Of a stretch of 64,000 bases of DNA, positions 8,199 to 59,714 are shown piece by piece. Source of the DNA: Arbacia lixula (taxonomy: Eukaryota; Echinodermata; Echinoidea; Arbacioida; Arbaciidae); assembly GCA_963669155.1 (NCBI GenBank), contig OZ022580.1:16545636-16609635 (forward strand), given 5' to 3'. Numbering within the stretch: the stretch's first letter is position 1; every line of letters begins with the position of its first letter. The notes under the pieces are model-generated. The model did not search any database. It was not told the DNA's origin and saw only the letters and a list, made by a program, of their open reading frames with translations. The translations under genes were made by a program, and so were the position numbers.

Positions 8199-8260
<62 letters not shown>

Positions 8261-10190: not shown

Positions 10191-10240
<50 letters not shown>

Positions 10241-17638: not shown

Positions 17639-17720
17639 ATGACTCGGCCAGCCATCCACACCCTCGTCCTCAATGTCCTCGCCATACTGCTAGTCTGCAG
17701 CACTAACTACGCGGTCGGAT
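17639..17720 (+). CDS. Receptor exon 1: start codon and signal peptide
   Basis: ATG sits in AACCATGA and is followed by a hydrophobic core (TLVLNVLAILLVCS), typical of a secretory signal. Donor GTAAGT at 17721; phase 1 end. Codons 1-27. Confidence 0.8.
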
Positions 17721-20700: not shown

Positions 20701-20800
20701 GTGACGTGGAGCTGCATTCGACCCACTACAATGCCGGCGTGTTCATAATCGGGTGTGATTGAACACGCGCCTAAAATCAATCAACAGCAGCAGCAACAGC

Positions 20801-20853
<53 letters not shown>

Positions 20854-23800
20854 CTCTTTTATGAGACAGGGAGTAGTCTGAGAGTACTAGACCCTATTTT
20901 GGATAAGAAATATCCAAAAGTCTTGACGCCAGGGTACGGTTATTCAATTGATATACAGTCATGTGCCACCTAGGCTCTGGCCTACTGTTAGTCTCGGTTA
21001 AAGACGCATTTTATCAGCCCGAATCCTAGCCAGGTACTAGGCTGTGAGGTACATGGGCACAACCCAGTCTCTAAACAATTATGTCTGGTAACACAGACTA
21101 TGCCCTAATCCTACCCTCGCTCCTCCGAGAAGCCAGAGAAGCTATGATGTAACTAGGGCGTAGTCTGCGTTACCAGACATAGTTGTTACTAGCCTGGGAC
21201 GTGTCCATGCATTTCACAGCCTAGTACCTAGTCTACCCGAATCCGCGATCGAACTCGTGATCGCCGAGAATGGATTGTCAGCCCGAAGAAAGTTCTCCAC
21301 TGTAGGTTTATGAGCACGCCGTATTACGAGGAAAGTTTCATTTGTTTATTCGTTTGAAATGCTTTCGGAACCTAGGATGGCATCACTGCCAAATAAATGT
21401 GAAACACCAGGGCCATGCTGCATATAGGTTTTCAATTTCTCTTCTACCTCCATGTTGTAACTTTCCATCGGTGGTAGTTACCATCAGATGGCAACCTGTG
21501 CAATAATAAGAGCTCATTGGCTGTTACCATGGTAGCAACCATTGGTGGTAAGTTACAATAATTGAAAACATGTATACAACATGGCCCGCTCCTCCCAGTA
21601 CACCGTACTCGTAGAATACAATTTTGTAAATTGTTCATGCGACAAAATTATGAGTCTCGATCCTCACCATCTAGAGAATAATTTTCATAATAATACACTT
21701 CTAATGGTTGAATCCCACAATTCTGGAAAAATTCGGCAAGTGAAGAAATAAGTCAATTTTGTAAAAAAGAAAAGTATATTTTATCACCCTTTATTCATCA
21801 TTCCTCAATACTGTAGAAGATGCATATAACAGGAACTTAAATGGTGTTGACCTTAGCTTTCATGAAAATTGTAAAATAATGTGATAATAGACACAGCTTC
21901 GAGAGACAACATTGGCAAATTAAGATTCGTCTTTCCACGTTGACATCCGATAAAAATCGGTGCTGTATGAGCATGGGATATCAGAGCATCGTCGCGATTT
22001 TTTTTTATGGAATGCTTTTGATTATCACATTTTAGAGTCTATACAGAGGTTTGAATATATCATGCCTTATTAAGTTGTTTCTCCTTCTTAACACATCCCT
22101 GCGTCAACCATTCGTTTACCAAAAGGACGCACATAATTATGAAGAGCTAGGGACAACATGAAAACATCATAACTATGCATCACAATTTTAGGAATAAATA
22201 CATGTACCACCATTTGTTTCACTTTTATAAAGTATATCGCTTCGCCTTATACACACTTATATAGATGCAATTCGACCGATGGTGTTGATCTTTCGCTATA
22301 ACGATCGACTCAAAACCGCGAAGTCTTATCATGGACGTATTAGATTAAGACATCCGTAGTCTTAGCATAAGCAAGGTCTTGCTACGTAAGCATGACGAGA
22401 CAACAATGATTTGACCCTCGGTCTGCAGGAATTTCAATTTTGGATATCTTTAAATAAAATGTGCTCGATGTGTTGTGGTTATTGTGTTGTGGTGTTGTTT
22501 GTGTCCGTCATAATTCCTAGACTATTTTGATCACGCCTATATGACTTATTATACTACATGGATGATACCTTCTTTCTAGCTTTGTCATGTCCCCGTTCAA
22601 TGCAATCACCAAACATAGAAGAAATGATTTAATGAAATGATTTAAATAATGGAAAAGGGATAATATGAAATCATTATTAGAGTTAAGCTCGAGAAACAAA
22701 TGTAGTGTCAACTTGTAGAAAGTAAAGCGAGATATTTACCTCTAAAAATGTGTGATAATTGAGTTTGATAAGAGGCGGGCAAAGAAGACGATGAAAAACT
22801 AGGGATGGCATATGTGTAGTAATAGCTAAATATAACCGTGACTGGCAGGACTTTGCTCTGAGGTCATTAGTCAAGTCAAGTCAATATCGGAGAGTATACA
22901 AACATCCACCCGCTATATGCATAGCTGCTGAATATTTAACATTGACATTTCACTCGGTCAATATGAAATTAGAGGGATGTTTGACATAATAAAGGAATGT
23001 ACATAGAGGAAGAACAATTAAAGGGAGGAATGTGATGCTGTACTACAGCGTGGCAGCGCAGTGTATATCTACACCTTAATCCTTTCATTAGAAATGCCTT
23101 GAACACTTGTAGTAAGCCAATGCAGATTCTAATGGCTTGTACTGGAGAGGGTTAAGAATGTAATTTGATATCATGCATATGTGAACTGTGACCCATATTA
23201 AGATCTTGATCTAAGCCGTTTATTGATTTTCGTTCCGTTTTTTTTTTATTCTCTGTCATGTCTAAATTCGTGGTCTACAGCTGAGGACAATGCAACAGGT
23301 ATGTAATTTTCATTTATCTGTCAACTCGCTGCTATGGTCATAATCATAACAAAGCAAAGTACTTATGAATACCAACCGGCTGCACATCACTGTCATGATA
23401 TACTAATACGGCTTTGAGTAATAATTTTTTCAGCAGATTTGGGCTCTCTTACAATTGCGAAGATATTGTTTAGCTATAGTGTGGTCATGATAGACACAGG
23501 ATAGTCGAATAATTGATAACTATGGTTGTGATAGGAAAATGTTATAAACTATGCTTTTCAGATATAGCATGTTACGTCACCACCATGTTGGCATTCTGAT
23601 TCATGAAAGGAGCTTAGGCGTTATATGCAAATGTGTTATTAGAAATGGCACTGGACAGATACGTAGAGAGGGAATTTTTATTGTATAACACATAGCATGA
23701 GAGAGGCGATGTCATTGCCTAATTCCAAATGTAGTATTAACAATAAGTGCCTCAGTGATACATTTGTGTTCAAGTATAGTAAACACAAGTTTCATCCAGC

Positions 23801-26800
23801 AGCATACAACTGGTTAGATAATCGGCGTACTGTTATGTTAAAGCGACTAAATAGAACACGTATGTTATGTCAGTCACTAACTGGACAGACTTTTCCTTGT
23901 TCATGCATTCTCAAGTACGTCTCGTCGGAGGAAGCATCCCTAGTGAGGGCAGAGTCGAGGTGAAGGTCGGCGGTGTCTGGGGTACCGTCTGTGACGACCA
24001 GTGGGACCAGCTTGATGCCGAGGTTGTCTGCAGGAGTCTTGGCTTCCGGTACGCTCTGGAGGCCCTTCCATACGCCTGGTTTGGCGAGGGATCGGGGCCA
24101 ATTGTCCTCGACGATGTCAGGTGTCAGGGAACAGAATCTACCATCTTCGACTGCGTGGCTATCACCTCCCACAATTGCCGCCATTCTGAAGATGCAAGCG
24201 TGATATGTGCACCAGTCATTTCTGGTAATTTGTTTCTAAATGTGAACATGCTTGTTATCATATAAATGTCTTTCCGTGATGGCTCGTGAATTTAGAAAGT
24301 ACCGAGTCATCTGCTCTGAATATATTCACGAACACATTCTATAACACAGCCAAGGCAGCTATTTGTTCTAAAGTATTTTACAATTTTCACATAGTCATTC
24401 AATTCGTTCACTTCGAAACGTTTAAAATGATCCATTATAGCGATTTATTGACATGACTTTTATGAGTATACATTTCAATTACACAACTGTCGGTTGCTGT
24501 TCAGCAGCATAGAAGGTGTTTACATGCTGATGTAAGTTGTACCCAACGATATGAAGCACATTCTGTTCAACAAATACATTCTGCTAAACTCCACACCTTC
24601 CCTTTCAGATGATGCAGTATCATTCATATCAGATAATGAAACGGTCAGGATTGCATCAACGCAACCACTAGGAGAGAGTTTAACGGTCCTAGAAGCAGAA
24701 GGTTCGAGGGGGTTTCGTGTGAGGTTTGTTGAACTAGACATCCGCACGAGTACCTTCATTCGAATAGGTAGCGGGAATCTATCCATGAGCTTGCAGCCCA
24801 TTGCCAGATTCCAAAACATCAACAGTCCCCCCGATGACGTGTTCCTACCAACTCATCAGATGTGGATTGTATATGGAAGGCACGCTACACGATATACAGG
24901 CCGCGTTCAACTTCTCATTACTACTCTTCCGGCTTCAGGTAGAGAAACCGTTTGATATAATCAATGAATGACCCCTTAACTATGAGACGCCCGTTCGGCC
25001 CCTGATTTTGTTATTTGCGTGTATTATGTATGCAAATTGTAAATACATGTACATTGATTGAATACTAAACATTAGGCCCAATTGTGCTTGAGCTACTGAC
25101 GAAAAGTCGTCACGAATTGTTGCTGTAGGCTGCTAAATGCTTATAGAGCATTTTACTTCTCATTTTACAATATCTTGACATTCAAGTACTGCTGTCTTTG
25201 ACACAATGTATTCCAAAGAGACCCAGGATAAACCTAACACCTATAAATACAGTGTCCTCATACTCCTGTTATACATTTTTTTTAATCATAGGAAAGGTCG
25301 CTGGCTCTTGAATTCACCAGCTCCTCGTGTTTTAAACATATTTCTGAAAGACTAGAGAATATGAACATGATTAAGTGCTGACATTATAAAGTGTGAATGT
25401 ATATAATATAATTTGCACATGTATAAACCAGTATTAACCCTTTGTGTGCCTGACGAAGTACTGCTCTATGGGATATGTGTGTCTTATTTGTGCAAAATGC
25501 ACACATGACGTGTCAAGGGTTAATGAGCTTGAATCTCGAATGATTCTTTACTTAGACTTGTTCCAGTGCACTTCAGAACAGACGTCAATCCTTGTGAGTT
25601 CTACTTGCAATGGCGTGCAAGAATGTGCACGCGGGGAAGACGAAGTGGGATGTTGTAAGTACAACTCTACTTATCTACTCTAACCTATCTTCAGGCAACC
25701 TACAATAATCCCAATAATTCCATGTGAATGTACCCAATCGAGAAATGTTACTTGTACTACTTTATAATTTGTTCGGAGAGTGTGATCAGGGATGGTTATT
25801 AGGAAGTTCATTTACAGCTGAATAAATTATTTTAGATGAGGTGTTCAGGCAGTCATTACAAAATAGATTTGTAGTATGGAATGGATTTTTTTTTATATTT
25901 TAACAAGAATGATCACGTACTGTTTTCTTTCCGTAGACATCCACCTGGCAGACGGGGAGAGTCAGCGGCTGTTGTCTTACAACTTTCCATCATCTAGAGC
26001 CGGAGCTTCTCTTCACAACGCTAAGTCCTTCTGGATCTTCTCCATGGACACTGAACCGTCGGACCAGTCTCCGAGAACGTATTACATCAACATCACAGAC
26101 GTATACATCGGCGCGGGTGACAACCTCACGGCAGCCACTGGGGATCATCCTGGCAACAGAACGAACACTGTGTTTAGCTACAGCGGGTATTCTCCAGCTG
26201 AATCCCTTCTCCCTATCGGTCATATGCTCAATGACACAACCTTCTTCATCGAATTTTCGACAGACCTTGAGGATGCAATAAGGGGATTTTCAATCAAAGT
26301 TTCTATAATTAATCCTGAAGGTAACCGTTTTCTCGTCCATTTATACTATGTTGAAATAATTGGTATATTACATGTCAGAAGTAAAGAAAAGAACAAAAAC
26401 AGAAAAGTGTCGTTCTTTAAACTCATATTACCATAGTTACCACCTTCCTTCATTCTCCAGGAACCTTTACCAAAATAATCTTATTATAAGTATTATTACA
26501 GATACTTTCTTATTTTAAACTACACATACGGTAATTGTATTCACCAAACATCATGTTTAATCCATGTGTGATATGCTCCGGTGACAGATTTGTTCTTTGT
26601 GGTCAAATTCGTACACTAATAATATTTAACATTCGACCAATGATTACATTTGATATTAATGCGGTGCCATAACGGGAAAACGTTAGCTACGAAGTACCAG
26701 GCGGCGAGCGGCACCAACAAATTGGTTCCGTGTGGACGTAGTTATAACCTTTATCACCAGCAACGAAATTACAATTGGGGGAATGTTGACGGAGCAATTC

Positions 26801-35390: not shown

Positions 35391-35424
<34 letters not shown>

Positions 35425-35855: not shown

Positions 35856-35909
<54 letters not shown>

Positions 35910-35949
35910 GGTTACAAAACGTGCCGAGAAGAAATCATATATGTGCCCA

Positions 35950-35986
<37 letters not shown>

Positions 35987-46280: not shown

Positions 46281-46328
<48 letters not shown>

Positions 46329-49300: not shown

Positions 49301-52300
49301 ATAGGCGTCCTAAGCAAAGGTTATTGCCATGATTACACCATTTCTCACATCAACATCGACATTAAATCCTTCATCTATTTTATCCGCGTAAACATAATAA
49401 TAAGTGTTATAATATATGAGCGAAAATTGTTGTTTAAGGCCACAATGTTTGGATTGAGAGGTTTAATTTCCGTTGTCATGGGCGAACATCAGCGTGGATA
49501 GGTCCTAACCGCCTCCACTCCTGACTGTGAGGTATTTATACAACTTTCAAACACTGCTTCTAAGGAAATCAACTCCATAAACAAAGTCATAACAGCGTAT
49601 AGTGAAATGAGTCAATTTTATGTGTTGAGTATCATTATTTAGACATTTGATTTATGTAACAATCGCCACTACACTCATGGGATAATGTGCTGAAAGATTT
49701 TGGTCAGTATTGGAAGTAATACGAGGTTCAGATACGAATCTTTGTCATGTTGATTGTAATGGCATTAAAGCTCAAAACTCGTGGTTGCACATTATGCTAA
49801 ACATGTCCATCATTTATACAGGACTCTGTTTGAATACGACATGGGACTCGCCTCGATTCGGAACGGTCGGGTTTCCGCGTGGAGAAAATGGAACGTGGGC
49901 AAATTCAACAGGCGTTTGCCCTTTTAACACAACTCGGGGTAAGTTCGCGATCGGGATTCTCCAAGATATCAATTTATTATGTGATGTCAGGAAGTGATTA
50001 TGATTCTGATTACATTGTAAAAATGAAATCATCGCGTTTGAAATCCAGAATTTACGTTCGGTTCATTGATATGATTAGAAAGTCTTCACAATAATTTGAT
50101 ATCACACATCACAAATCAAAAGACTCACAATGTTCGGCCCGAACATTTTGAAGATTTATGATTTAATCACTGATTACTCTTTTATCTTCCCAATAGAGTA
50201 TATTTCCTTTAGCTACACACTACGCGGTAGATAGTTTTGTGGTTGACGGAGTAGAAGATGGGGGAAGAAATGTTCCAAGATCTGATTTCTCGCCAGTATT
50301 CCTACATTGATTATCTATATGTTCGGCGGCCCATTTAATGTTGTGACAGTTTTTCTTCTTTTCTATTTCTGTTTTATGAAATTTTGTAAACCCATCATGA
50401 AAAAGGTTAACACTTTCTGTACAAAGCCTTAATAAGCACATTGAGTTATTGCGCATTATGTGCTCCCAAGGGATTCGGAGAGCTAAGAAGCTCGTTTCTC
50501 ATATTACAGCTGGTGAGCCGATAGCTCGAGCCCTGTGTGTTGGGGACTTCATCCTGCAGAGCACCTGGCGCCCAGAGGACAACTGTGGTCCAGTAAGAAC
50601 AGTCACAGACCTACTCACCGACCTATCCCAGGTTAATCCTTTATTCTTTTGTTTGCATAATGGGCATTTGTTTCTTAATATTTTCATAGAGTTTTAACTT
50701 GACACGACTTTAACTGTTACTGTGACTAGAGGCTGCATTTAACGATACGATGTATACGCGTTTGCGTCACGTCCACCTGGATTTTACAATATGATGTGCA
50801 AAAGTCTTCGTTGCATTCACAGTTGTGGTAAAAAATATTTTATAGCATGACCTTTTAAGCCACACGTTGCACTGAACAGTTCCCCCACTCAGCCCATTCG
50901 TACATACAGACGATATTGAACATTAAAAATTGCCATGGGCTTGCGCTAAGCCTGCCGGGAAATGAGTGTTCTCTATTGCACCTCTCCCATTCCATATCAC
51001 TCTCACCCACACATGCAGTAGCATACAGGAAGTTAAGGCGTTAACTAGAAACTATCTAAAGACAAACTAGATGCCATGCCCACGAACATGGATGCACTTG
51101 CAACCAAAATCAAAGAAAGTGTGCAAAAGTGGCGATAAATCTCTTAACTTAACCGCATATTTCCTTTCATGCATTCTGTGTTTGTTTAAACCTTTAATCG
51201 GGACGATTGAATGCCCTTTTTTTCAAACTCCACTGTTTTCTAACTCTACAGATTGAACTAACAAGTTCCTCGGTAACAGTGATCAGCGAGGAGCTGTCAG
51301 TTGTGACGATGAACACGGAAGAGATAACCTCACAGGACATTATCTTGGTTTCTGACCTGACGTCCAGAATTGTGCAACTGACGTTAACAGACGATGCTCG
51401 AATCGCGGAGGTTAGTTTTTGAATTAACACAAATTTACATGCCACGTTATCAATACAAAGTATCCATGATCCATATGACCCTACTAACGTGACTTTGCTG
51501 ACCTAAGGTTGCAATATAGTTACATTCAGTCAATATGCAGATAACTATCCTGGGTACACGAAATACGTTTCCGGAAACTTCATATAACTTCATTGTATGG
51601 GTAACTGAGTTCACATTCTTTGAAATCAACATAATTACCTTTTAAACATGCTACTTATGGAGCTCATGTGCATCATTCGAATATATATAATACATGCAAT
51701 GTTCATTGGAGATACATTTATGCATTGACAGCATGTCTTTTTTTCTTAGATACGTTTCGAGATTAAATGAGTTGTCAATTATGAAATAAATAAAAACTGT
51801 GACCATAAAGCGGTTGAACACTGTGCACATTGTGCTCATCATGAATCAGTGACCGTCCTTCTCACACTGCTTCCCATTTAGGTTATTTTCAGAAAAGTGC
51901 ACGGAAAATAGAAACATGAGATATTTTTACCTGTATTGACAGTTCCAAATGTAATATTCAGAAAATGCATGTTCTTCGTTAATTTTATTTTCAAAATGAC
52001 ACGCGCATAAGTAAGGCATGTTGCGCGTGAACGTTGATTTGGAAAGAACAAAATGGATGAGGTATTCGGAAGCCCGTTGGCCTTGTCAGCTATGGTTTTT
52101 CGGTAACTTGAGCATCGTGACATAATGGATTTATTTACATTCAGGTTGCAACCTCGTTGACAAGTATCGTAAACAACATAGCTGACGTAGCCGTCACTGA
52201 GCTACAGGCGGCCGAGGAAGAAAGTGGAGCGACCAGACGGTTGGTGAAAGCTTTTGAGGAACAACTTCAAAAAGTAGAAGTTGCTGAAGGGATGAATCTG

Positions 52301-55300
52301 ACCGTTATGCAACCAAATGTTGCCTTGCTGGTGAGGACGTGAGCGTATTTCAAAAGTTTATTTACGCACGCAAATTGTAGTTAGAGGTGTAGTCAGAGTA
52401 AGTGGTTCGAGCTTTTGAGGAACTTAAAAATTAGAAGTTACCAACATGACCAAAGGGATGATTCTGACCGTTATGCAACCGAATGGTGACGTGCAGGTGG
52501 GTGAGCATATTTCCTAATTTGGTTTTACATACACAAATCTTGGTTAGAGGCGTGCATTTACTAAAGCTCGTTAGGTGTTGGCTTATTAATTGTAAGTCAT
52601 CTAAACTTAATCATTGTATGGTGAGATCTATAGCTAAATTATTTTCATGTGTGTTTCATGCTCGGCATTGATCATAAAGCAGGAAACATGTTAAATATGA
52701 AATATGTTACATTATGCACTGCTCGTTATATTACATGATTCACAGGCCGCTATTGACATGATTGAGACAATCAGTATGCGCTTGAAATTTTCTGTTTGCT
52801 TACGTCACTTCTGAATACTGATAATCATATAAATGGGTCAGATGAACTATTAAAATTATGATTTGTACTTAAATTATCCAATTACCAATAATGTATAATA
52901 TACCTTCAACTTGTTCTTTTGGCACAAACAGATTCAATATGTACCTGAAGCTGACATATCTAGAGGTTTGATGCTATCTGTTTCTGCATCGAGCTCTTCC
53001 GACTTGACAACATCCAGTATCACTCTCGAGAACAGCGACGGGGGAATAGGCGAGAAAACCGATGTCCTCACTTCCGTACGAATCCCCACAGCGATCTTGT
53101 CTGTCCTGTCTTCTTCGCCTGGCTCGAGCAGCGTCCGTCTTATCTTGAGTGTGTTTTCCACGCCAGTTCTCTTCATATCACCGCTAGTTCGTAAAATCAA
53201 TGAGGACAATGGAGGCTTCAACCGATCGGCTAACACGCCGGTGGTGTTCCTCAGGGTCGGTGATGGGCAGGTCTCGGGGCTAACAGAGCTCATCAACTTC
53301 ACCTTCACTCCCATCGAGGTGAGCTGAACATAGGCTTCGAAATCGTTTCCTGTATATGTCTCGTGTGCAAAGGGGGGAGGGGTTATGAGGGATGGCAAAA
53401 AAAACAACATGTAAGTATTATTTTAACCTCTTCTATGCCATTCGAAATTTCATGGATAGCAATAACAGGCACGAATAATAGGGAACGGTTTATAATGTCC
53501 TCTTCCACCACCCATTTCGCCCTGGCCGTTCTTTGAAGTCACTAGTAAGGGTGTCACATTCTAAATGCACGCCAACACCACGTTTTGGTATTTGTGGTTG
53601 TCAAAAATAATTCTTTAAATAATCAACATTGATATGATAAGTAACGGTCCAGGGAAGCCGCATTTGCTTTTTTCCCTGTTTCCTCCTGCATTGGTTTTGT
53701 TTGATCTCCGATAGCTTTCGAGATTCCCTGCATGTGTGAGTCTTTAGCATTATCGTCTTATGTATATCCAATACCTTCTGAGATTCCCTGAATGTACACG
53801 ATAACGTCCAAGATGAAACGAATAATTACGTGTTGTGATTTAATATTAAAGTTTTCCTAGCATTTGGACCATTTGAGAGGGACTTATCCACGGGATGACA
53901 GTACTTTATTGAAGATGATCGATTATGATCATTGAAATATACTCACAAATTGTCTATACCAATGTGTAATTGCGCGAACACCAATAGATGTTCAACCCTG
54001 CTTTAGGTCTATGTATTTATTCATATCTATTTATTTATTTATTTATTATTATTTATTTATTAAGTCTTTTTTAAACAGGGTAGCCCCATCAGTGAGCTTG
54101 GCACTGTTCTCCCTGGGGGCCCTGTGTACAAATAACACAATAATATAGAGTAACATGAATAGATAAACAAATAGACACATAGATTACACAAACAAATGCT
54201 GTAAACCAAAAAGCAGCGTAGGTCATCTAGTAAGGAATATAACAAAAAGAAGAAGGCGAACCGATGCTTTCACATGCATGACACAAGCGAAACCTTGTAC
54301 ATTTTCTGACTAAAAATTATGTGATTGATACTAATATCGATGTGATTACTTTAGAAGAGCGTGTCATATGTCTTCAAATTAATATCAAATGTTTTGTTTG
54401 TTTGATAAAGTCTGGCCTGGGCTATCCTAGGTGTGTTTTCTGGGATGACGTCCAGAGTGATTGGTCTAACGAGGGCTGTAGATTAGTGTCCTCCACGGGA
54501 CTGACTCAGGACACCGCGACCACCTCGACAGTGTCTGGGTCGAGCAGTGAGACGGAAGAGAGAATCGTGTGTGGATGCAACCATCTCACAAACTTTGCTG
54601 TGCTAATGGTAGGTAGGAAATTGATATTTTAATGGGCATATACTGTACTGGGAACTAGACAAAAAAAAGTGTGATCGTGAGCAATTTTCTTACAAATGGT
54701 CTTAAATTTATGCATTGTCCATTTTAGAAACTTGCTGAAAGTTATTTGCCCTTAAATGGTCTACGTTGTATCACAAATCCTCAAAATGTTCGGCGCGAAA
54801 CATTTTGAGGATTTGTGATATTTTCTAAAAAGTTCCTAAAATGGATAATACCTGAATTTAAGACCATTGGCAAGAAGATTGCTCACGATAACCCTTTTAA
54901 AGGCTTCTTGTCTTCCCAATACAGCATATCCCCTTTAATGGTATCGGCTGAATGCAGTTGTTATGCTTTTCTTGTAAAAAGATGATATCTCACTTTAGCA
55001 CATTAGTCCCGTTGCTATGTCGGCCGAATAGGTCTCTTTCGTATTAAACAAGGCCGTCTAGTCTCCCTTTTGCTCTGAAAGATCATTACTTTAAATCGAT
55101 AAATTTGATCAGAGTACTTTACATGTTCACGTATTATTCATTTTAGAAACTTTTTAGAAAATATCACAAATCCTCAAAATGTTCGCGCCGAACATTTGAG
55201 GATTTGTGATATTTTTGAATCTAATGAATCTTATGAATTTAAGACCATTGGTAAGAAGATTGCTCACGATTACCCTATTAAAGGCTTCTTGTCTTCCAAG

Positions 55301-58300
55301 TACAGTATATTTCCTTTAATGGTATCGGCTGAATGCAGTTGTTATGCCTTTCTTGTAAAAATATGATATCTTACTTAGCACATAACTCCCTTTGCTTTGT
55401 CGGATGAATAGGTCTATTTCGTCTTAAACAAGGCCGTCTACATGGTCTAGTCGCCCTTTTGCTCTGAAAGATCATTATTTAAAATCGATAAATTTGATCA
55501 GAGTACATTACATGTTGGTTTTTACAGCTTAAAATATATCACCACCTGTTAGACTCAATGACCAACTGTTATTAGTACATGGTTTAACGTGGTAAGAATG
55601 TTCGTTCCCTCATAATTCCGGTGGAAGATTATTTCGTCAAAGCGGCCCTAGTAGGCTGCTTTAGATTTGTGGGAAAGTTGGTGGCGTTCAGGTCCAAATG
55701 ACGTCATTTTGAAGCATTGCGCATGCCCCAAAACTTGAGAGCGGGGTGCTCGTTTTCATGAAGCCAGCAAATCTCCAGTTTACGCTTTTTCGATGCAGGT
55801 ATTGGAAAGGAAACAAACCTTCAGGCATGCGCAAAGCATCACTATGACGTTTTTGGACCCGAACACCGTCCGCGTTTTCATAAAATATATACACGAATAT
55901 ACAAATTGTAATACCATGATGCATATCATAATGATATATTTCTGTTCATATATATATTTATTTATAAAATGTAATTGATTGATATCCAATGGAAGTTTTT
56001 TCCTCAAATTCGTCATGCTAAAGGATACCTACAACGACGTAAGGCCTCTTATACCCAAGGCGTATGGCACGGTGACGTATGTAGGGTGCGGAATATCCAT
56101 CGCCAACCTCGCCATTACTCTTCTGATTTATCTCTTCAAAAGGTAATATCCCTAATTAATTAGGAACACTAGTGATAGTTTTAAGAGGTCCATACGGCAT
56201 GCACAATCTGTCTTTTTTAGTGTTGTTTCAGAGTAGTGTTTCTGCAACACCGTGTGTGTGTATGTGTGTGTGTGTGTGTGTGCGCACACACACATTGTTG
56301 GGCAGGGAAAGTTGAACATTAAACAATACACATAATTTTTTAGCGCAAGCTCCTGCCTCATATTCTTCCCCTCCCATCCCCCGTTTGATAAACAAGGGCT
56401 TTCCGGGCTTACCATCTGAATGTACAATTAGATTCACACCATTATAGTTTTGACGATGAATGTATAATCATTTTAATTTATAAACAAAAATAGGGAAATG
56501 TGATCGTAAGCACTTATTTATATCGCGACACTTGTCGTGATGAAAATTAGCAACAATAAGCAGTTTCTTTTTTTTTCAGGCAGAAAATAAACTATACTCC
56601 TAAAATATGCCAAATTAGATTACTAATGTTAATAAGATATAACCAAATAAGCAAGTTCACCCTTTTCTCCATTTGCACCTGATTAATCATCATTTGTATT
56701 TCGACTCTTCCAGAGCATTAAGGAGAATCATGGCTAATCGGATATTCATCTGTCTGATTGGTACCTTGCTCTGTCTCTACGTGGCATTCGTCATCATGCT
56801 CGGCGTCGACATCTTCCACGACCACGCCGAGGTTGCGCTAGGTCCGTGTGGCTTGCTTGCGGCCCTTGTCCACTTCTCCATGCTGTCAGCCCTGGCCTGG
56901 ATGGACGTCGACGGGTTCTTTATGTACCTCACAATCGTCAGGGGATCCAACACAAACGTTGAGAATGTCATGGTGAAAGCTGGTCTGGTCGCCTGGGGTA
57001 GGTTGAAGCAACTGCAGACGGCACGATTTTGCCACAATTTTGCAATCATTAGGGCCTACGACTGCAAAAGTGACGTCACCCTCGTGCACATAACCGGGCT
57101 CTGAGTTTTCGTCAGTCGCAGAGTCGTTTGACTGATCATGCTCATTGGATCGTGTCCTGTACTGTGGCCTTAACATTATATAGTGTATATATAGTGTATA
57201 TAATGTATCAGGCTTATCCAGTGTGTTTCGGTGCGCATGTGTGTGTGTGTGTTCATCTACGTTTGCGCTTAAGTTAGTGTTAGCTAATGTGAAAATAAAA
57301 ACGCAGCCTACAATGAATAAGTTTTTGAAAAACGAAACGACTTATTAGAATTGTTAAAGAAGTTATGTCGTATAACTCATGTCCATTGTTTTAGTTCTTG
57401 GGAGTCTGTACCCTTATATATACTGTAGGTATCCTGTTTTCTTTTAATGTCTATGTAGTTTTATTTCAGTATGTCGTTGGCCAGTGGTTTTCCATCTCAG
57501 TGCTATATTTATTTATATGGTCTCTACTCAAGAGCAGTCTTCGTAAGTTAAAGGACTACCCTGTTGGCATGAAGCTCAAACATTACTTTTTTTCCTTTTA
57601 GGTCTTCCTGCCGTCATTGTTGTACTAACAGGAGCTATCGCTAGAGACATGTACGCTTATGATGATGTGTAAGTTCTTGTTATTTATTCGTATAATTGAG
57701 GCCAGAAGTTTGCATACACCCAGAAAATTCAAAGAAAAGTTGACACTTGCCAAACATCATACAATTTGCTGTATCTTGTCAAATGTTTGCGCCATCATGA
57801 CGAATTTGATATCAAACAAATGAGTATGTCACGCCCCTTCATCACATTGCTTTGTCATCAGGATCTGAAAAATATTTAGGTTTCATTCCCCCCCCCCCCA
57901 AAAAAAAAAAAAAAAAAAAAAAAAATGATATTTTCGACAAATTGAAAATAAAAACTTGACAGAAACATCTAATATTTTAATAAGTTACTTCTCAACACAA
58001 ACATTTCAGATTACACTTTTTTGTTCAGTGGTGACATATCATGATAGAGAATGTAATATCAATCATAGATTTGACATTTATAGATTTGTATGAACCGGTG
58101 TTTAAAAATATAATAGCAAACAACAGAATACATTTGACACGAATATTACATTTTTTCTTCAAAGAAAATTCCATCTGAAATATAATTTAATCCAAATAGT
58201 ATTCCAATCATGTGAAAGGGCTTAATACGTTCTTTCCTTTGATATCGAATTCGTCATGGTAGGAGTTATATTTCCGTAAATTTTACGATGTTTGGCAAGC

Positions 58301-59714
58301 GATCAAATTTCACTAAATTCCATGTCTGTATGTAAACTTATGGCCTCAACAATTTGTGTTCAAATATAAATGTTAATAGTCTATACTCCTTGACTATGTA
58401 AATACCTTATGTTTGTCAATTTAAAAATGATTTGAATTGTACATGTTTATTCAAGGATTATTACGTATGCGACTGCACATATTACCAAAACTCGGTAACA
58501 ATTTGAATGGCTTGGTAAGTACAATTCTGTTATTACCCAGTTCATCTGAAAAGCTGACGGGTTAATCGATCATCATTTCGTTAGTTAGAAGATGGAAGCA
58601 GTGTTGTTCTGTATACATTCCTCTTCGCCCAATCAACCAATATGCAGGTGCTTCCCTCAAGCTTGGGCCCAGATCGGAGGGCTTCTCATTCCCGTGGCCA
58701 TCATACTCCTGATCAACATCGTGATCTTCGTCATGGTGGTTCGAGCACTGATTCAGTCGGCCAACCCTTTAACTCATGCTAAGGACGACGACGCCAGGGA
58801 ACGCCGTGACGCCATCGCGCGAGTCCAGAATGCCATCTGTCTTCTGCTGATGTTTGGTATCACGTCCATTACTGGATATTTCGTCCTATTTCCGGAATTC
58901 AGTCAGGTATAGTAAGCCTCCAATGATTATTATAACTCGTAGTACATAATATCATGAATTCAGACGACATATGCCAAGAACATGACAATATATGCCAAGT
59001 TTTGTTGTGTTAGACCTTGCACAAAAGAAAACAATTAAGTACAGATCAAGTTTGAAGGATTTTGTTTGTCAATACCTACTCTCTTTGACAAGCTTTCATG
59101 TAAAATGGGCAGCTCAGACTATTTAAATATTTCATTTGTCATGCTCTTCGTTCTGAATTTCATGGTGTAATATTATATTCTTTTTCTTGTAGGTCTGTTT
59201 ATTTTGATTTTGTCAGAATATTCAATGTTTTCGAAATTCACATAATTGCTATTTCATGCTCTTGGTTCTGATTTTCATTCTCTCTGACACATTTTCCTTC
59301 TTTTAAGTTTCTTTAGTAAGAATTTTTCAGGGATATACTCATTACTTTCGAAATTCACATGGATGTGCATGATCTGTATTTCAGGTGGCCCGGGTAATCT
59401 TTATCATTGCGAACATCCTTCAAGGCATCTTCTGTCTGCGCAGACCGCTGGCCCGCAATCTGTACGGCCTGACCGGGTGTGACGGCAATCCCACCTCCGA
59501 GTCTCCCACGAACTCCGGCTTGACGTACAGCTCTCAGGACCCGTCCTCCACGGGGGGACACTTCACTGCCCCGTCACAACGCCGAGGCAGTAACAAGTAC
59601 AAGTTACAAGAGGAAGTGTCTGGCAGGGATGATCTTACAGGTGTTGCGCTTAACAATCCCGTCTATGACAACATTATGCTAGACGTTAAGGGCGAGGAGC
59701 TAATGCCGCTATAA
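17639..59714 (+). CDS. Giant SRCR/CUB-like/LDLa/EGF/Ig/SEA adhesion GPCR
   Basis: 43 exons joined in frame give 9,651 nt (nominally 3,216 residues). Order: signal peptide (1-27), linker (28-33), SRCR/CUB-like/LDLa array (34-2146), three EGF (2147-2276), Ig (2277-2361), SEA-like (2362-2474), HRM-like (2475-2530), GAIN (2531-2798), GPS with CNHLT (2799-2864), seven helices (2865-3130), short tail. Adhesion GPCRs are surface receptors that cut themselves at the GPS and signal through a tethered agonist; here TNFAVLM would be its start. SRCR, CUB and LDLa modules bind proteins or polysaccharides, so recognition of microbial or matrix ligands is plausible but not shown. Codon 1063 is TAA (32253-32255) in a skippable exon. 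No single known orthologue is recognised. Confidence 0.85.
17960..19125 (+). pseudogene. RTE-like non-LTR reverse transcriptase, degenerate
   Basis: Fragments in three frames: APGPSDIIKAGG, then IPTKWKSGKIILLHKKDD and FQKAFDSIEHKDMF, then INRGFIQGDILSPKTF, then DPRFADNVALITTPEQDLEE. FADN stands where active RTs have FADD. The end (EMKMRWARN, then remnants of GRP..RW..D) fits the C-terminus of RTE-type elements. Frame changes near 18140, 18470 and 18630, plus stops, make it non-functional. Confidence 0.8.
19560..19915. repeat. Cluster of poly-G, poly-A, poly-C and (AAC)n tracts
   Basis: Runs of G near 19562-19580, A near 19689-19714, C near 19755-19773 and 19903-19914, plus an AAC run near 19818-19841. 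Glycine or leucine-rich reading frames here are artefacts, and assembly error is likely at such runs. Confidence 0.9.
20755..20852 (+). repeat. (CAA)n microsatellite, possible SINE tail
   Basis: About 26 CAA/CAG units follow TGATTGAACACGCGCC and TAAAATCAATCAA. A polyglutamine reading frame crosses it but has no other support. The flank resembles 12365-12400. Confidence 0.85.
21018..21243. mobile_element. Palindromic MITE, ~90 bp arms
   Basis: CAGGTACTAGGCTGTGAGGT and TATGTCTGGTAACACAGACT on the left pair with their complements on the right (ACAGCCTAGTACCTAG, GCGTTACCAGACATAG). A loop of about 45 bp separates the arms. Confidence 0.8.
21404..21600. mobile_element. Palindromic MITE, ~75 bp arms
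   Basis: GGCCATGCTGCATATAGG and GGTGGTAGTTACCAT on the left pair with ATGTATACAACATGGCC and ATGGTAGCAACCATTGG on the right. No coding capacity. Confidence 0.75.
23281..23298 (+). CDS. Receptor exon 2: 18-nt microexon
   Basis: The acceptor TGGTCTACAG and donor GTATGT bracket 18 nt encoding SEDNAT. It is phase 1 on both sides and links signal peptide to the first SRCR in frame. Its short length makes it less certain than the others. Confidence 0.6.
23916..24224 (+). CDS. Receptor exon 3: SRCR domain 1
   Basis: A 103-codon, phase 1-1 exon. It begins VRLVGG, has GRVEVKVGGVWGTVCDD, VVCRSLGF and ends DASVICAP. Six cysteines mark a group A SRCR. Closest in this gene to SRCR 4 (both have ALEALPxAWFG). 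Confidence 0.95.
24609..24938 (+). CDS. Receptor exon 4: CUB-like module, type B
   Basis: Phase 1-1, 110 codons, cysteine-free. It has FRVRFVELDI, GNLSMSLQPIARF, DDVFLPTHQMWIVYG and a final strand. Most similar in this gene to exon 22. Confidence 0.85.
25556..25654 (+). CDS. Receptor exon 5: LDLa-like module 1
   Basis: 99 nt, phase 1-1. CNGVQECARGEDEVGC fits the calcium-binding C-terminal half of LDLa. Only four cysteines are present instead of six. Confidence 0.85.
25937..26320 (+). CDS. Receptor exon 6: CUB-like module, type A
   Basis: 128 codons, phase 1-1. It shows LADGESQRLLSYNFP, a WIFSMD strand, GAGDNLTAATGDHP, VFSYSGYSP and NDTTFFIEFSTD. The pattern is CUB-like (YP, GD, SG, F-SD positions) but no cysteines remain. 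Several NxT glycosylation sites. Confidence 0.85.
26868..26966 (+). CDS. Receptor exon 7: LDLa-like module 2
   Basis: 99 nt, phase 1-1; DWFSC at the start and CDGTYQCDNYADETSC at the end. Very close to exon 25 (DWFFC, CDRTYQCKNYADEISC), supporting block duplication. Confidence 0.85.
27338..27664 (+). CDS. Receptor exon 8: CUB-like module, type B
   Basis: 109 codons, phase 1-1. LSLFQTNSTVFQVKFTDVYL, IGTGTDPLDNGS and EMWIAVIGSW closely match exon 26, which has the same positions in the second block. Confidence 0.85.
27969..28073 (+). CDS. Receptor exon 9: LDLa-like module 3
   Basis: 105 nt, phase 1-1. YGCTSERKWLPG and CDGVPDCLRGEDEGNC; matches exon 27 (CTSERKWIQG). Four cysteines. Confidence 0.9.
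28267..28635 (+). CDS. Receptor exon 10: CUB-like module, type A
   Basis: 123 codons, phase 1-1. LTDGEAQRLVSHNYPGNY, WVFSTG, GTGDSLTAAAG and FSTDSSGTQGGFSMEVS. The intact end of this module shows what is broken in exon 14. Confidence 0.9.
29096..29404 (+). CDS. Receptor exon 11: SRCR domain 2
   Basis: 103 codons, phase 1-1. EGRVDVFLDGNVGTVCDESW, VVCSSLGFQLALHALPGSWF, DASVICFP. Six cysteines; closest to SRCR 3. Confidence 0.95.
30179..30514 (+). CDS. Receptor exon 12: CUB-like module, type B
   Basis: 112 codons, phase 1-1. PRSYNVSSF, FRITFLDLYLPDGD, STLQRTHRIQG, ANEMWIAVSN. Closest to exon 20, which also follows the related SRCR. Confidence 0.9.
31254..31352 (+). CDS. Receptor exon 13: LDLa-like module 4
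   Basis: 99 nt, phase 1-1. HRCDLEGEWIHR and CNGIQDCVHGDDEFGC. Donor GTAAGT. Confidence 0.9.
31933..32289 (+). CDS. Receptor exon 14: CUB-like module with in-frame stop
   Basis: The exon is 357 nt with phase 1 ends and good splice sites. It reads MADGESLRLTSFNYP, RWVFSME, NNETFFIEFSTG and then hits TAA at 32253-32255 where the family has GFS. The following codons resume the family pattern (FSVDVSVLNVQG) to the donor GTAAGC. Inclusion would give a 1,062-residue soluble product; skipping removes 119 codons and keeps frame. Could also be a sequence error. Confidence 0.85.
33016..33114 (+). CDS. Receptor exon 15: LDLa-like module 5
   Basis: 99 nt, phase 1-1. FYLCSSDSR and CDGDLDCLGGEDETAC; donor GTGAGT. 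Confidence 0.9.
33645..34001 (+). CDS. Receptor exon 16: CUB-like module, type A
   Basis: 119 codons, phase 1-1. LGDGESQALAFQ, VWAFSMDTQANRSFYINIT, GVGDSFTAGIGDHPDN, VINDATFYIELST. No cysteines. Confidence 0.9.
35001..35099 (+). CDS. Receptor exon 17: LDLa-like module 6
   Basis: 99 nt, phase 1-1. DFYKCAFQQ and CNGVQDCGRGDDEDDC; donor GTAAGT. Confidence 0.9.
35155..35230 (+). repeat. Dispersed hairpin repeat, copy 1
   Basis: AGGGTAGCCCC, a small stem-loop around GCGGTTGAACCGT, then GGGGTCCTG and TAACACAA. Related copies lie at 54077 and 63421. Confidence 0.55.
35346..35391. repeat. Left arm of inverted repeat enclosing tRNA-like gene
   Basis: CACTGGGCACATGTATGATT and onward is the inverted copy of 35907-35952, differing at about three positions. 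Both arms border (AT)n tracts. Confidence 0.8.
35395..35420. repeat. (AT)n microsatellite
   Basis: AT run; further AT runs lie at about 35863-35906 and 35953-35980, followed by a (TG)n run near 35998-36015. Confidence 0.95.
35687..35757 (+). tRNA. tRNA-like gene, anticodon TCA
   Basis: A 71-nt cloverleaf folds fully: acceptor GTCTCTG/CAGAGAC, D stem GTCT/AGGC with AGTGGTTA loop, anticodon stem CCGGC/GCTGG with loop GTTCAAA, T arm CCGGG-TTCGATT-CCCGG. A and B boxes look good, and a T-run terminator starts at 35760. The anticodon reads TCA, which would pair with UGA stop codons. The long variable and acceptor arms of tRNA-Sec are missing. The body resembles tRNA-Glu/Asp types, so a mutated copy or tRNA-derived SINE head is more likely than a working suppressor. 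Confidence 0.75.
35907..35952. repeat. Right arm of inverted repeat enclosing tRNA-like gene
   Basis: Ends in ATATGTGCCCAGTG, complementary to the start of 35346-35391. A direct repeat CATCCATTTCTTTCACAAAA also occurs inside, near 35431 and 35842. Confidence 0.8.
36563..36934 (+). CDS. Receptor exon 18: CUB-like module, type A
   Basis: 124 codons, phase 1-1. SGGSQRLTSYLAYMYP, RWIFSLDTQANET, DSGDYLTAAIGDHPEN, DTKFYIEFTSN. Precedes an SRCR, as exon 10 does. Confidence 0.9.
37439..37753 (+). CDS. Receptor exon 19: SRCR domain 3
   Basis: 105 codons, phase 1-1. VRLGGG, EGRVDVYIAENVGTVCGG, VCRSLGFQLALHAL, AGVICFP. Six cysteines. Confidence 0.95.
38291..38623 (+). CDS. Receptor exon 20: CUB-like module, type B
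   Basis: 111 codons, phase 1-1. PRSYNVSWFRTDSSLGFRIA, GNLQRVHNIQG, ADEMWISASN. Unlike most type B modules it is followed directly by an SRCR and not by an LDLa exon. Confidence 0.9.
39448..39756 (+). CDS. Receptor exon 21: SRCR domain 4
   Basis: 103 codons, phase 1-1. VRLHGG, GRVEVNLDGIWGTVCDGNW, VTCRSLGF, DASVVCSP. Starts the second copy of the seven-exon block. Confidence 0.95.
40461..40793 (+). CDS. Receptor exon 22: CUB-like module, type B
   Basis: 111 codons, phase 1-1. FRVQLVELDVSQS, GGGNLSSSLQPLKRISS, DDVYITTNDIWVAYGS. Matches exon 4 in nearly every landmark. Confidence 0.9.
41426..41524 (+). CDS. Receptor exon 23: LDLa-like module 7
   Basis: 99 nt, phase 1-1. YMCESEMKWIHQ and CDGIQTCERGDDEMDC; donor GTAAGT. 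Confidence 0.9.
41573..42015. mobile_element. TTAA-type MITE in receptor intron 23
   Basis: Ends AGGGATAGTCCACC and GGTGGACTGTCCCT are inverted copies and pairing continues through AGGTTTGACCAAAG/TCAAACCTTCAC. TTAA precedes the left end; the right flank is TAAA/AAAT, probably mutated. Same AGGG terminus as the element at 15586. Confidence 0.8.
42477..42845 (+). CDS. Receptor exon 24: CUB-like module, type A
   Basis: 123 codons, phase 1-1. GGIQRLTSYDYPFNYSTNAY, LYINITDILLAPGDNLTAAI, VFSYSGYSPPQYLLPIGH, NDTTFFIEFSTN. Matches exon 6. Confidence 0.9.
43370..43468 (+). CDS. Receptor exon 25: LDLa-like module 8
   Basis: 99 nt, phase 1-1. DWFFCGDSGRLVS and CDRTYQCKNYADEISC. The CDR in place of CDG is a small deviation. 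Confidence 0.9.
44180..44512 (+). CDS. Receptor exon 26: CUB-like module, type B
   Basis: 111 codons, phase 1-1. QSLFQTNSTGFQVRFTDVFL, GVGNDPLDSEF, DIWLAVIGSSW. Matches exon 8. Confidence 0.9.
44895..44993 (+). CDS. Receptor exon 27: LDLa-like module 9
   Basis: 99 nt, phase 1-1. DLFSCTSERKWIQG and CNGITDCLQGEDEDNC. Acceptor ATTCCAAAG, donor GTGAGT. Confidence 0.9.
45401..45576. mobile_element. Short palindromic MITE in receptor intron 27
   Basis: GGGGGCATTTAATGAAAGTT and GTCAGTACTGAC on the left mirror GTCAGTGCTGACAACTTTCA and GATGGCCCCCC on the right. Confidence 0.75.
45723..45977 (+). CDS. Receptor exon 28: two EGF modules
   Basis: 85 codons, phase 1-1. The first EGF ends FTCVCKNGYTMD; the second begins NIDECIDP and has GSYTCTCPLGYVGDG, the calcium-binding EGF signature. 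Confidence 0.95.
46268..46335. repeat. (CA)n microsatellite
   Basis: CACACA run interrupted by ACGCAC and ATACAC. Confidence 0.95.
46540..46674 (+). CDS. Receptor exon 29: EGF module 3
   Basis: 45 codons, phase 1-1. NPCPVFEPCVNGVCVN, then YRCDCQDNFQGVYC. Donor taken as GTACGA at 46675. Confidence 0.85.
47107..47361 (+). CDS. Receptor exon 30: Ig-like domain
   Basis: 85 codons, phase 1-1. RIQLRCGFTN, YEWFRDG, then SDIGYYFCRGYG, the paired cysteines, Trp and DxGxYxC pattern of an Ig fold. Last of the symmetric ectodomain exons. Confidence 0.9.
48160..48272 (+). CDS. Receptor exon 31: SEA-like domain, first half
   Basis: Enters at phase 1 and leaves at phase 0. ASIEVSNARFDIEYQSDLSD then TSDLFQQTIARI fits the N-terminal strand and helix of SEA modules, which sit before GAIN in several adhesion GPCRs. 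Confidence 0.75.
49094..49319 (+). CDS. Receptor exon 32: SEA-like domain, second half
   Basis: Phase 0 to 1. CRNLRPGSVIADMDIYIDD carries GSVIA, like the GSVVV autoproteolysis motif of SEA. The donor (GTTATT at 49320) is weak, so the 3' edge is less sure. Confidence 0.7.
49822..49938 (+). CDS. Receptor exon 33: HRM-like segment
   Basis: 39 codons, phase 1-1. LCLNTTWDSPRFGTVGFPRG and STGVCPFNTT resemble the C-W-G-CP pattern of hormone-receptor-motif regions in adhesion GPCRs. Donor GTAAGT. Confidence 0.8.
50095..50200. repeat. Diverged copy of the hairpin MITE seen at 54.7 kb
   Basis: CTCACAATGTTCGGCCCGAACATTTTGAAGATTT resembles the tip of the 54770 hairpin, and the downstream TCTTCCCAATA...AGTATATTTCCTTTA matches its flank. 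Sequence is quoted in parts: CAATGTTCGGCCCGAACATT forms the palindrome. Confidence 0.6.
50510..50631 (+). CDS. Receptor exon 34: end of HRM-like, start of GAIN
   Basis: Phase 1 to 0. ARALCVGDFILQSTWRPEDN followed by a cysteine and TDLLTDLSQ, which starts the helical GAIN subdomain A. Confidence 0.8.
51252..51410 (+). CDS. Receptor exon 35: GAIN subdomain A
   Basis: 53 codons, phase 0-0. Acceptor TAACTCTACAG, donor GTTAGT. Mixed helical sequence ending TDDARIAE. Confidence 0.75.
52145..52330 (+). CDS. Receptor exon 36: GAIN helices
   Basis: 62 codons, phase 0-0. VATSLTSIVNNIADVAVTEL and LVKAFEEQLQKVEV are typical GAIN helices. Its 3' half is duplicated in the next intron as a degenerate copy. 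Confidence 0.85.
52401..52560 (+). pseudogene. Fossil partial duplicate of GAIN exon 36
   Basis: GTGGTTCGAGCTTTTGAGGA and GATTCTGACCGTTATGCAAC repeat the exon sequence at 52239-52330, and the following GTGGGTGAGC... and GGTTAGAGGCGTG repeat its intron. The copy contains in-frame stops and a shortened middle, so it is not used as such. Confidence 0.75.
52932..53318 (+). CDS. Receptor exon 37: GAIN subdomain B
   Basis: 129 codons, phase 0-0. SVRIPTAILSVL, VRLILSVFSTPVLF and GLTELINFTFTPIE fit the beta-rich GAIN subdomain B. Confidence 0.85.
54077..54160 (+). repeat. Dispersed hairpin repeat, copy 2
   Basis: AGGGTAGCCCCATCAGTG, loop, CACTGTTCTCCC, GGGGGCCCTG, then AATAACACAATAA. The CAGTG/CACTG stem is perfect. 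Confidence 0.6.
54411..54608 (+). CDS. Receptor exon 38: GPS motif
   Basis: 66 codons, phase 0-0. CVFWDDVQSDWSNEGC then VCGCNHLTNFAVLM. Both disulphide pairs, the WS and the HL-T cut site are intact, so self-cleavage is expected. Confidence 0.95.
54672..54893. mobile_element. Hairpin MITE, ~105 bp arms
   Basis: GTGATCGTGAGCAATTTTCT at the left pairs with AAGAAGATTGCTCACGAT at the right, and the tip is ATCACAAATCCTCAAAATGT facing ACATTTTGAGGATTTGTGAT. It lies in the intron after the GPS exon. Confidence 0.8.
54722..55516 (+). repeat. Direct duplication of ~380-400 bp containing the hairpin
   Basis: Copy 1 (about 54722-55129) and copy 2 (about 55140-55516) share the hairpin, AAGGCTTCTTGTCTTCC, ATGGTATCGGCTGAATGCAG, and AATCGATAAATTTGATCAGA in the same order. 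Both lie in the intron between GPS and TM1. Confidence 0.85.
56024..56142 (+). CDS. Receptor exon 39: TM1
   Basis: Phase 0 to 2. YGTVTYVGCGISIANLAI and LLIYLFKR make helix 1. Acceptor ATGCTAAAG, donor GTAATA. Confidence 0.85.
56250..56290. repeat. (TG)n/(CA)n microsatellite
   Basis: TGTGTG run turning into GCGCACACACACA. Confidence 0.9.
56714..56997 (+). CDS. Receptor exon 40: TM2-TM4
   Basis: Phase 2 to 1. RIMANRIFICLIGTLLCLY, then CGLLAALVHFSMLSALAWMD (TM3, with the WMD motif like WM.eg of adhesion GPCRs), then VMVKAGLVAWG. Confidence 0.9.
57602..57668 (+). CDS. Receptor exon 41: TM4 end and ECL2
   Basis: Phase 1 to 2. GLPAVIVVLTGAIARD is the GLPAxIV signature of family B-like receptors. 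Acceptor CCTTTTAG, donor GTAAGT. Confidence 0.9.
57694..58352. mobile_element. Tc1/mariner-like MITE in receptor intron 41
   Basis: The left end TTGAGGCCAGAAGTTTGCAT and the right end TGTAAACTTATGGCCTCAA are inverted copies, and pairing continues over about 140 bp (CTTGCCAAACATC, GACGAATTTGATATCAAA). The GAGGCCAnAAGTTTrCATACA terminus is typical of Tc1-like elements. The middle has poly-C and poly-A and no transposase. Confidence 0.8.
58648..58906 (+). CDS. Receptor exon 42: TM5-TM6
   Basis: Phase 2 to 0. GGLLIPVAIILLINIVIFVM (TM5), a basic third loop with DDDARERRDAIARVQ, then ICLLLMFGITSITGYFVLFP (TM6). Confidence 0.9.
59385..59714 (+). CDS. Receptor exon 43: TM7, tail and stop
   Basis: Phase 0. 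VIFIIANILQGIFCL is TM7 with the N-x-x-QG motif. The tail of about 85 residues is Ser/Thr-rich with NNPVYDN near its end. Stop TAA 59712-59714. Confidence 0.9.
   Translation: MARVIFIIANILQGIFCLRRPLARNLYGLTGCDGNPTSESPTNSGLTYSSQDPSSTGGHFTAPSQRRGSNKYKLQEEVSGRDDLTGVALNNPVYDNIMLDVKGEELMPL

Follow-up and report, generated by a model that had tools for sequence, protein, structure and literature searches.

Parts of the receptor described here are known from other adhesion GPCRs. The ectodomain of ADGRG6/GPR126 contains a SEA domain. This vertebrate receptor, like the gene reported here, has a CUB plus HormR-GAIN ectodomain (PMC13197933), but it carries one CUB and a pentraxin where our gene has an array of 25 modules; Pfam finds no pentraxin match in our gene, the remaining ADGRG6-type order is present, and the vertebrate ADGRG proteins listed in our search are 25–29% identical to the query. 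SRCR repeats have been reported on an adhesion GPCR of the sponge Amphimedon (PMC4302439), and SRCR, CUB and LDLa have each been reported on amphioxus adhesion GPCRs (PMC2246102); the combined 25-module array is not described in the available parts of these two papers. In a sponge, an SRCR gene and an adhesion GPCR gene, separate from each other, are both reported to be induced by microbial patterns (PMC6208332), and BAI1, an adhesion GPCR described as an LPS receptor, is a precedent for microbe sensing (PMC9533005).

The nearest relatives are echinoid proteins that NCBI lists as uncharacterised adhesion GPCRs: LOC100891145 of Strongylocentrotus purpuratus and LOC129271821 and LOC129271822 of Lytechinus pictus. 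They have the same domain order as our gene, share its four-cysteine LDLa and B-type CUB-like repeats, and are 46–50% identical to it from GAIN to 7TM. Unlike our gene, they have no SRCR or type A module that we could find, they keep the TM6 tryptophan and their TM7 is full where aligned. S. purpuratus LOC115922802 and LOC764348 have two SRCR domains on the same kind of cassette, compared with four in our gene, and HYR domains instead of its CUB and LDLa modules. We recognised no published description of this echinoid cassette family in a literature covered mainly through titles and abstract openings, most subscription literature lying outside that scope.

Here we compare with these systems a gene in a 64,000-nucleotide stretch of the Arbacia lixula genome (C5:16545636-16609635, GC 38.2%; "the window"). 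With a probability of about 0.6, we read it as an adhesion GPCR in which a head of SRCR, CUB-like and LDLa-type modules sits on an EGF-Ig-SEA-HormR-GAIN-GPS-7TM cassette that paralogs appear to join to other heads, and whose signalling is likely weak or lost in this copy.

Gene structure

The locus was rebuilt as a single predicted gene of 42 exons, 9,633 nt and 3,210 codons on the + strand, positions 17639-59714 of the window (Table 1). The gene finder was small and ad hoc, trained on this gene's own long open exons, and doubtful exon borders were set afterwards by similarity among the modules or to paralogs. When the optional micro-exon is added, the model has exactly 43 exons and 9,651 nt; this is presumably the model of the sequence-only reading, which had described one gene of that size with all exons joined in phase. 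The single + strand gene is upheld, the exon count and length are reproduced only with the micro-exon, and the open frame is interrupted by a TAA in module A3 (below).

The 28 exons that run from SRCR1 to Ig are all of phase 1-1. The median splice sites of the model exons are strong, a score as high being reached by 2.1% of GT sites for the donor and 2.8% of AG sites for the acceptor; weak sites are also present (donor minimum 1.2, acceptor minimum 1.6), those of SRCR1 and TM1 included. That the stalk linker before TM1 is missing was considered and rejected, since comparison with paralogs places the start of the TM1 exon earlier, at 56024; a separate micro-exon for the linker was sought within the window and not found. 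The Pfam scan, the search for protein relatives and the TM2–TM4 genome search were run with a TM1 exon 36 nt short.

The join of head to cassette is, like all the splice sites, predicted, and the locus might instead be divided, positions 17639-44993 encoding a secreted SRCR/CUB/LDLa protein and positions 45723-59714 a separate, shorter EGF-Ig adhesion GPCR. In favour of two genes, the 43 kb read upstream of the nearest paralog, on contig C11, contains no SRCR, type A, type B or L module. On the other side, the L9–EGF junction is open and in phase 1 across an ordinary 729-bp intron, and the same EGF/Ig/SEA cassette is preceded by B and L modules in annotated proteins of S. purpuratus and Lytechinus. 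We regard a division into two genes as very unlikely.

Table 1 Predicted features of the receptor gene, in window coordinates
Feature	Position	Strand	Basis or remark
Exon 1: start codon and signal-peptide-like sequence (by eye)	17639..17720	+	phase 0-1, donor 5.3
Optional 18-nt micro-exon, outside final model	23281..23298	+	first-pass gene finder
SRCR1	23916..24224	+	phase 1-1; weak acceptor 1.7; placed by similarity to other SRCR exons
CUB-like B1 (type B)	24609..24938	+	module comparison
LDLa-type L1	25556..25654	+	Pfam E 6.5e-6
CUB-like A1 (type A)	25937..26320	+	module comparison
LDLa-type L2	26868..26966	+	module comparison
CUB-like B2	27338..27664	+	module comparison
LDLa-type L3	27969..28073	+	module comparison
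CUB-like A2	28267..28635	+	passes Pfam CUB, E 8.3e-5
SRCR2	29096..29404	+	Pfam
CUB-like B3	30179..30514	+	module comparison
LDLa-type L4	31254..31352	+	module comparison
CUB-like A3, with in-frame TAA	31933..32289	+	module comparison
Possible internal intron of A3, removing TAA	32089..32262	+	174 nt; donor 3.4, acceptor 4.8
LDLa-type L5	33016..33114	+	module comparison
CUB-like A4	33645..34001	+	module comparison
LDLa-type L6	35001..35099	+	module comparison
CUB-like A5	36563..36934	+	module comparison
SRCR3	37439..37753	+	Pfam
CUB-like B4	38291..38623	+	module comparison
SRCR4	39448..39756	+	Pfam
CUB-like B5	40461..40793	+	module comparison
LDLa-type L7	41426..41524	+	module comparison
CUB-like A6	42477..42845	+	modelled, CUB fold
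LDLa-type L8	43370..43468	+	Pfam E 0.0016, below cut-off
CUB-like B6	44180..44512	+	modelled, CUB fold
LDLa-type L9	44895..44993	+	module comparison
EGF pair, first exon of cassette	45723..45977	+	Pfam, paralog comparison
Third EGF	46540..46674	+	Pfam, paralog comparison
Ig domain	47107..47361	+	Pfam, paralog comparison
SEA exon 1	48160..48272	+	Pfam, paralog comparison
SEA exon 2	49094..49319	+	Pfam, paralog comparison
HormR-like exon 1	49822..49938	+	cysteine pattern; weak Pfam GPR128_N, E 0.012
HormR-like exon 2	50510..50631	+	cysteine pattern, paralog comparison
GAIN exon 1	51252..51410	+	position and relatives
GAIN exon 2	52145..52330	+	position and relatives
GAIN exon 3	52932..53318	+	position and relatives
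GPS, CNHL/TNFAVLM	54411..54608	+	Pfam GPS E 2.3e-9
Stalk linker and TM1	56024..56142	+	paralog comparison; weak acceptor 1.6
TM2 to TM4	56714..56997	+	Pfam
TM4 end and ECL2	57602..57668	+	paralog comparison
TM5 and TM6, switch W to S (residue 3088)	58648..58906	+	alignment of relatives
TM7 (five residues short) and cytoplasmic tail	59385..59714	+	alignment

Several other features lie in the window. Exon-like stretches at 4959-10719 (+) are membrane transporter-like, one of four pieces having a weak Pfam MFS_1 match (E 6.5e-4, below cut-off), and we take them to resemble SLC16. Reverse transcriptase pieces occur at 13682-14785 and 18136-18849 (zf-RVT E 2.4e-7; RVT_1 weak, below cut-off), the latter inside the 6.2-kb first intron. 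An interspersed repeat at 20079-20300 has at least 39 further genome copies of about 81–83% identity among the best 40 of 1,860 candidates.

The head array

The head consists of 25 modules: 4 SRCR, 12 CUB-like (6 of type A and 6 of type B) and 9 LDLa-type (L). Profiles made from the gene's own modules and run on the window found 9 L, 6 A, 6 B and 4 SRCR stretches, far above chance, and tblastn found no further modules in the window outside the model exons. These are the numbers given by the sequence-only reading; its domain names suit the SRCR modules, and for the LDLa and CUB-like modules they need qualification by cysteine content.

The SRCR domains match Pfam at E 6.9e-54 and 8.8e-49 in two pieces, with two stretches each, and the whole scores pass the cut-off. 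All four have six cysteines, a number that marks one SRCR class. An LDLa domain canonically has six cysteines in three disulfides; all nine L modules have four instead and retain the acidic DE cluster, and Pfam LDLa stretches cover seven of them. CUB domains have four conserved cysteines in pairs, and these pairs are absent from our CUB-like modules, not one of the twelve having any cysteine. Only A2 passes the Pfam CUB cut-off among the twelve (A3 was submitted only in part), and the type A and type B sequence profiles found nothing significant in the PDB (best E 0.057 and 0.62). The identification as CUB thus depends on fold comparison. AlphaFold2 models were made of one module of each type, A6 and B6, each with six window sequences as the alignment. 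The A6 model (pLDDT 84.1) has as its top Foldseek match 6gh8_A, an entry with the neuropilin-2 CUB (E 3.5e-5, TM 0.70), and the top matches of the B6 model (pLDDT 88.6) are enteropeptidase (TM 0.69) and the TSG-6 CUB (TM 0.72). For both, the majority of the 50 PDB matches listed are CUB proteins, with a few other folds, and the ADGRG6 ectodomain 6v55 is among them. These two modules are accordingly modelled as, and predicted to adopt, the CUB fold.

The order of the modules is itself repetitive. The block SRCR1-B1-L1-A1-L2-B2-L3 corresponds to SRCR4-B5-L7-A6-L8-B6-L9, with 61, 42, 44, 59, 68, 46 and 65% identity between successive partners, six of the seven pairs (all except L1/L7) being reciprocal best matches, and SRCR2-B3 pairs with SRCR3-B4 (57 and 43%). 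As far as module similarity can show it, the array grew by direct block duplication, and exons of phase 1-1 fit classical exon shuffling.

We searched the whole genome (606,990,701 bases or 607 Mb, in 590 contigs) for both types of CUB-like module. At E 1e-3 type A matched at eight places, of which six lie in this gene and the other two, both weak, on contig C21; the latter (C21:3312181-3312519 and C21:3501822-3502160, 28–29% identity) are the sole type A matches outside the gene, and C21 is absent among the 120 7TM/GPS matches listed. The type B search had three matches, all in this gene; since it found only three of the gene's own six B modules, its sensitivity is limited.

Relatives in other species

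Protein searches returned 126 relatives, with isoforms and near-copies counted separately. The best are echinoid (S. purpuratus and Lytechinus), 46–52% identical over the region searched; for the cassette, matches to annotated proteins reach E 9.2e-203. Within this set, type B modules occur in 10 proteins, L modules in 10 and SRCR in 4; type A occurs in none, nor does SRCR occur together with B or L. By sequence comparison, then, parts of the head appear on the same cassette in other species, and the combination seen here is not among the 126 relatives. The sequence-only reading had recognised no described orthologue; that remains so for the full architecture in this set, while its parts are known on the same cassette. 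A search with the B1–A2 portion of the head had zero matches at E 1e-3 among 7,989 candidates, and it missed the B-bearing proteins P0001-P0003 despite their fitting the length range, for which reason we give this negative little weight.

Isoforms X1, X2 and X3 of S. purpuratus LOC100891145 (P0002, P0039 and P0038) are identical except for L-B blocks of 153 aa (about one L-B unit) and 298 aa (about two), and by their example splicing may include or omit such units. We built a tree from 23 sequences and 870 columns, in which the window gene and C11 form a pair (support 100). With an amphioxus protein as the root, the tree places this pair with the S. purpuratus and Lytechinus LDLa/CUB and SRCR receptors (support 79), and those LDLa/CUB and SRCR echinoid receptors group together with support 97.

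Paralogs in the same genome

The TM2–TM4 exon has at least 17 other places in the genome at 45% identity or more and E ≤1e-20, among the 120 matches listed. Four loci were compared by tblastn, three of which were modelled with the gene finder, and parts of two more were modelled; the C11, C3 and C5 models hold doubtful exons, and the gene finder missed the TM1 exon of C11 and C5.

The nearest paralog, C11, is 41–82% identical per exon from EGF to TM6 and 38% in the TM7/tail exon. Ahead of its EGF exons are 30 HYR-type exons (the two tested in Pfam are both HYR). In C11:7158195-7182318 (loci L012-L015) these tandem exons are mostly 240 nt, often at a spacing of about 741 bp, and the near-identity of units suggests recent tandem growth. 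The C3 head has repeated EGF, EGF-fn3 and fn3-like exons, which form near-identical tandem blocks before the cassette copy at C3:6941296-6965529 (loci L026-L028). For the paralog on C5 at 16.42-16.45 Mb, the head comprises LDLa, LDL_b and CUB and overlaps that of the window gene in kind (LDLa and CUB). At C10 the head contains seven EGF exons or more (Pfam was run on one of the seven), its 7TM lying just beyond the stretch read. Elsewhere on C5, the head at 17.30-17.34 Mb has EGF matches, and no module array was found in the 20 kb read at C5:11267001-11287000. At C5:16409111-16410074 (loci L017-L018) there is a long open exon that looks like a rhodopsin-type GPCR by eye; it precedes the next adhesion GPCR paralog by about 10 kb, and the gene finder fused it to that model.

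C3 shares the exon phases of the window gene from Ig through TM7, and C11 shares them as far as the GPS exon. Seven C11 cassette exons keep their lengths (255, 135, 255, 113, 226, 122 and 186 nt), the others being off by a few codons or mis-modelled. From these models, at least four sister genes (C11, C3, C5 at 16.4 Mb and C10) appear to join the same cassette to other heads, and the window gene is likely one of a mix-and-match receptor set.

Relative to C11, dN/dS is 0.25 over 1,052 codons (dN 0.248, dS 0.99) and 0.28 in TM1–TM6. The window copy has the longer cassette branch (0.35 vs 0.22), and at 316 columns unvaried in the outgroups used it shows more lone departures than C11, 23 vs 6 in the 7TM and 20 vs 8 elsewhere. 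A relaxation specific to the 7TM is unsupported (Fisher p 0.55), the acceleration spanning the whole cassette. From these comparisons, constraint on the window copy was real and has probably loosened, and the cassette-wide acceleration is as compatible with general relaxation, and hence with early decay, as with a loss specific to signalling.

The cassette and its seven-helix domain

Pfam found three EGF domains, Ig and SEA beside the array, as had been read from the sequence. HormR and GAIN are assigned provisionally, by cysteine pattern, position and relatives, the Pfam match being weak. The 7tm_2 match has E 6.8e-32 over profile positions 6-249 of 250. The GPS, previously called intact, is so: its four cysteines, two tryptophans and HL/T cleavage site are all present, and autoproteolysis there is predicted. 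The sequence after the cut, TNFAVLM, agrees with the TxFxxLM consensus given for the tethered agonist (PMC13197933). By 7tm_2, GPS and tethered agonist the gene belongs to the adhesion GPCRs (class B2), and together with the domain order these bear out the proposal of an adhesion GPCR with immune-type binding modules; the TM6 tryptophan, common in the class though not strictly defining, is lacking.

The 7TM had also been called intact, and here the sequence-only reading fails. At the TM6 switch position the gene has S; of 121 relatives, 120 have W there and one has Y. In TM3 it has D in place of the E found in 114 of the 121, and five residues are missing from its TM7, a helix that is full in 18 of 18 other aligned sequences and in 4 of 4 own-genome paralogs compared, a count that excludes the 121 relatives because fragments there were trimmed and a pattern count mixed in unrelated Q-G sites. 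The TM6 tryptophan, called a conserved toggle switch (PMC13197933), is reported to contact the tethered agonist in ADGRD1 and ADGRF1, where alanine changes in the core around W6.53 lower basal activity by more than half (PMC9046087). Judged from these residues, the loss of the switch tryptophan and of part of TM7 has likely left this copy with weak signalling or none.

These changes bear on the possibility that the gene is an ordinary signalling adhesion GPCR, mechanosensitive or pattern-recognising, whose head binds ligand and whose 7TM couples to G proteins. It retains the GPS, TNFAVLM, both extracellular cysteines and the TM7 Q-G pair, and its dN/dS relative to C11 is low, in TM1–TM6 as well. 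The TM6, TM3 and TM7 changes, and the effect of alanine changes around W6.53 in ADGRD1 and ADGRF1, argue against it, and we find such a receptor doubtful. The link to G-protein signalling that had been proposed is weakened by the loss of the tryptophan and the shortening of TM7.

An in-frame stop in module A3

The full-length A3 exon contains an in-frame TAA at 32253-32255 (+), codon 1057, so the full exon cannot be translated throughout. The gene finder preferred a 174-nt internal intron that bypasses it (Table 1), whose donor and acceptor scores are equalled by 6.2% of GT and 3.2% of AG sites. Skipping A3 could also avoid the TAA, and would keep the frame because every module exon is symmetric. 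The A. lixula assembly was made from HiFi reads, and high heterozygosity is reported (PMC11310861); the former lowers the chance that the TAA is a base error, and given the latter the TAA may be present in one allele only.

Taken with the TM6 and TM7 losses and the faster evolution of the whole cassette than in the nearest paralog, the stop could mark a recently inactivated paralog in early decay, the 7TM changes likewise reflecting loss of function. However, neutral change simulated at 0.01 per site in a gene this long gave about 3.7 stops on average (20 runs), and we observe one stop and zero frameshifts in 3,210 codons, which suggests that the stop is recent, allelic or dealt with by splicing rather than the mark of an old pseudogene. 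The pairwise dN/dS of 0.25, the strong median splice sites (some are weak) and the location of the TAA in a symmetric exon that can be skipped in frame also speak against decay, and we think it rather unlikely.

Discussion

Under the reading that we prefer, a receptor with an exchangeable head and a weakened or lost switch, exons ended in phase 1 would have been duplicated and exchanged in front of the cassette, such that the head determines what is bound and the cassette determines the readout. The GAIN domain would cut itself at HL/T, and the SRCR/CUB/LDLa head would bind a fixed partner, which may be the matrix, another cell or a microbe. Such binding would put the N-terminal fragment under pull, and the tethered agonist TNFAVLM would be uncovered. 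The 7TM response of the window copy would likely be weak or lost, and unless decay has already begun, this copy would serve mainly for adhesion or binding or as a decoy.

A broader form of this reading, which we offer tentatively, treats the cassette as a universal socket: germline mix-and-match surface receptors would arise by exchange of phase-1 exons, with no gene rearrangement, and the window copy would be a giant decoy or shedding receptor that has lost the switch and kept the self-cleaving socket.

If transcripts agree with the models, one genome carries the same receptor engine under at least five heads (window gene, C11, C3, C5 at 16.4 Mb and C10), and these natural head swaps would make the contribution of an adhesion GPCR's head directly testable. 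The window gene would be the sole one with an SRCR/CUB/LDLa head among the heads compared here, and a natural experiment on a self-cleaving receptor after loss of its switch residue. SRCR genes are reported to be expanded in echinoderms and expressed in immune cells (PMC6208332), and the gene, if correctly read, would tie this echinoderm SRCR repertoire to seven-helix receptors. The main interest lies in the shared cassette under exchangeable heads, more than in the single gene.
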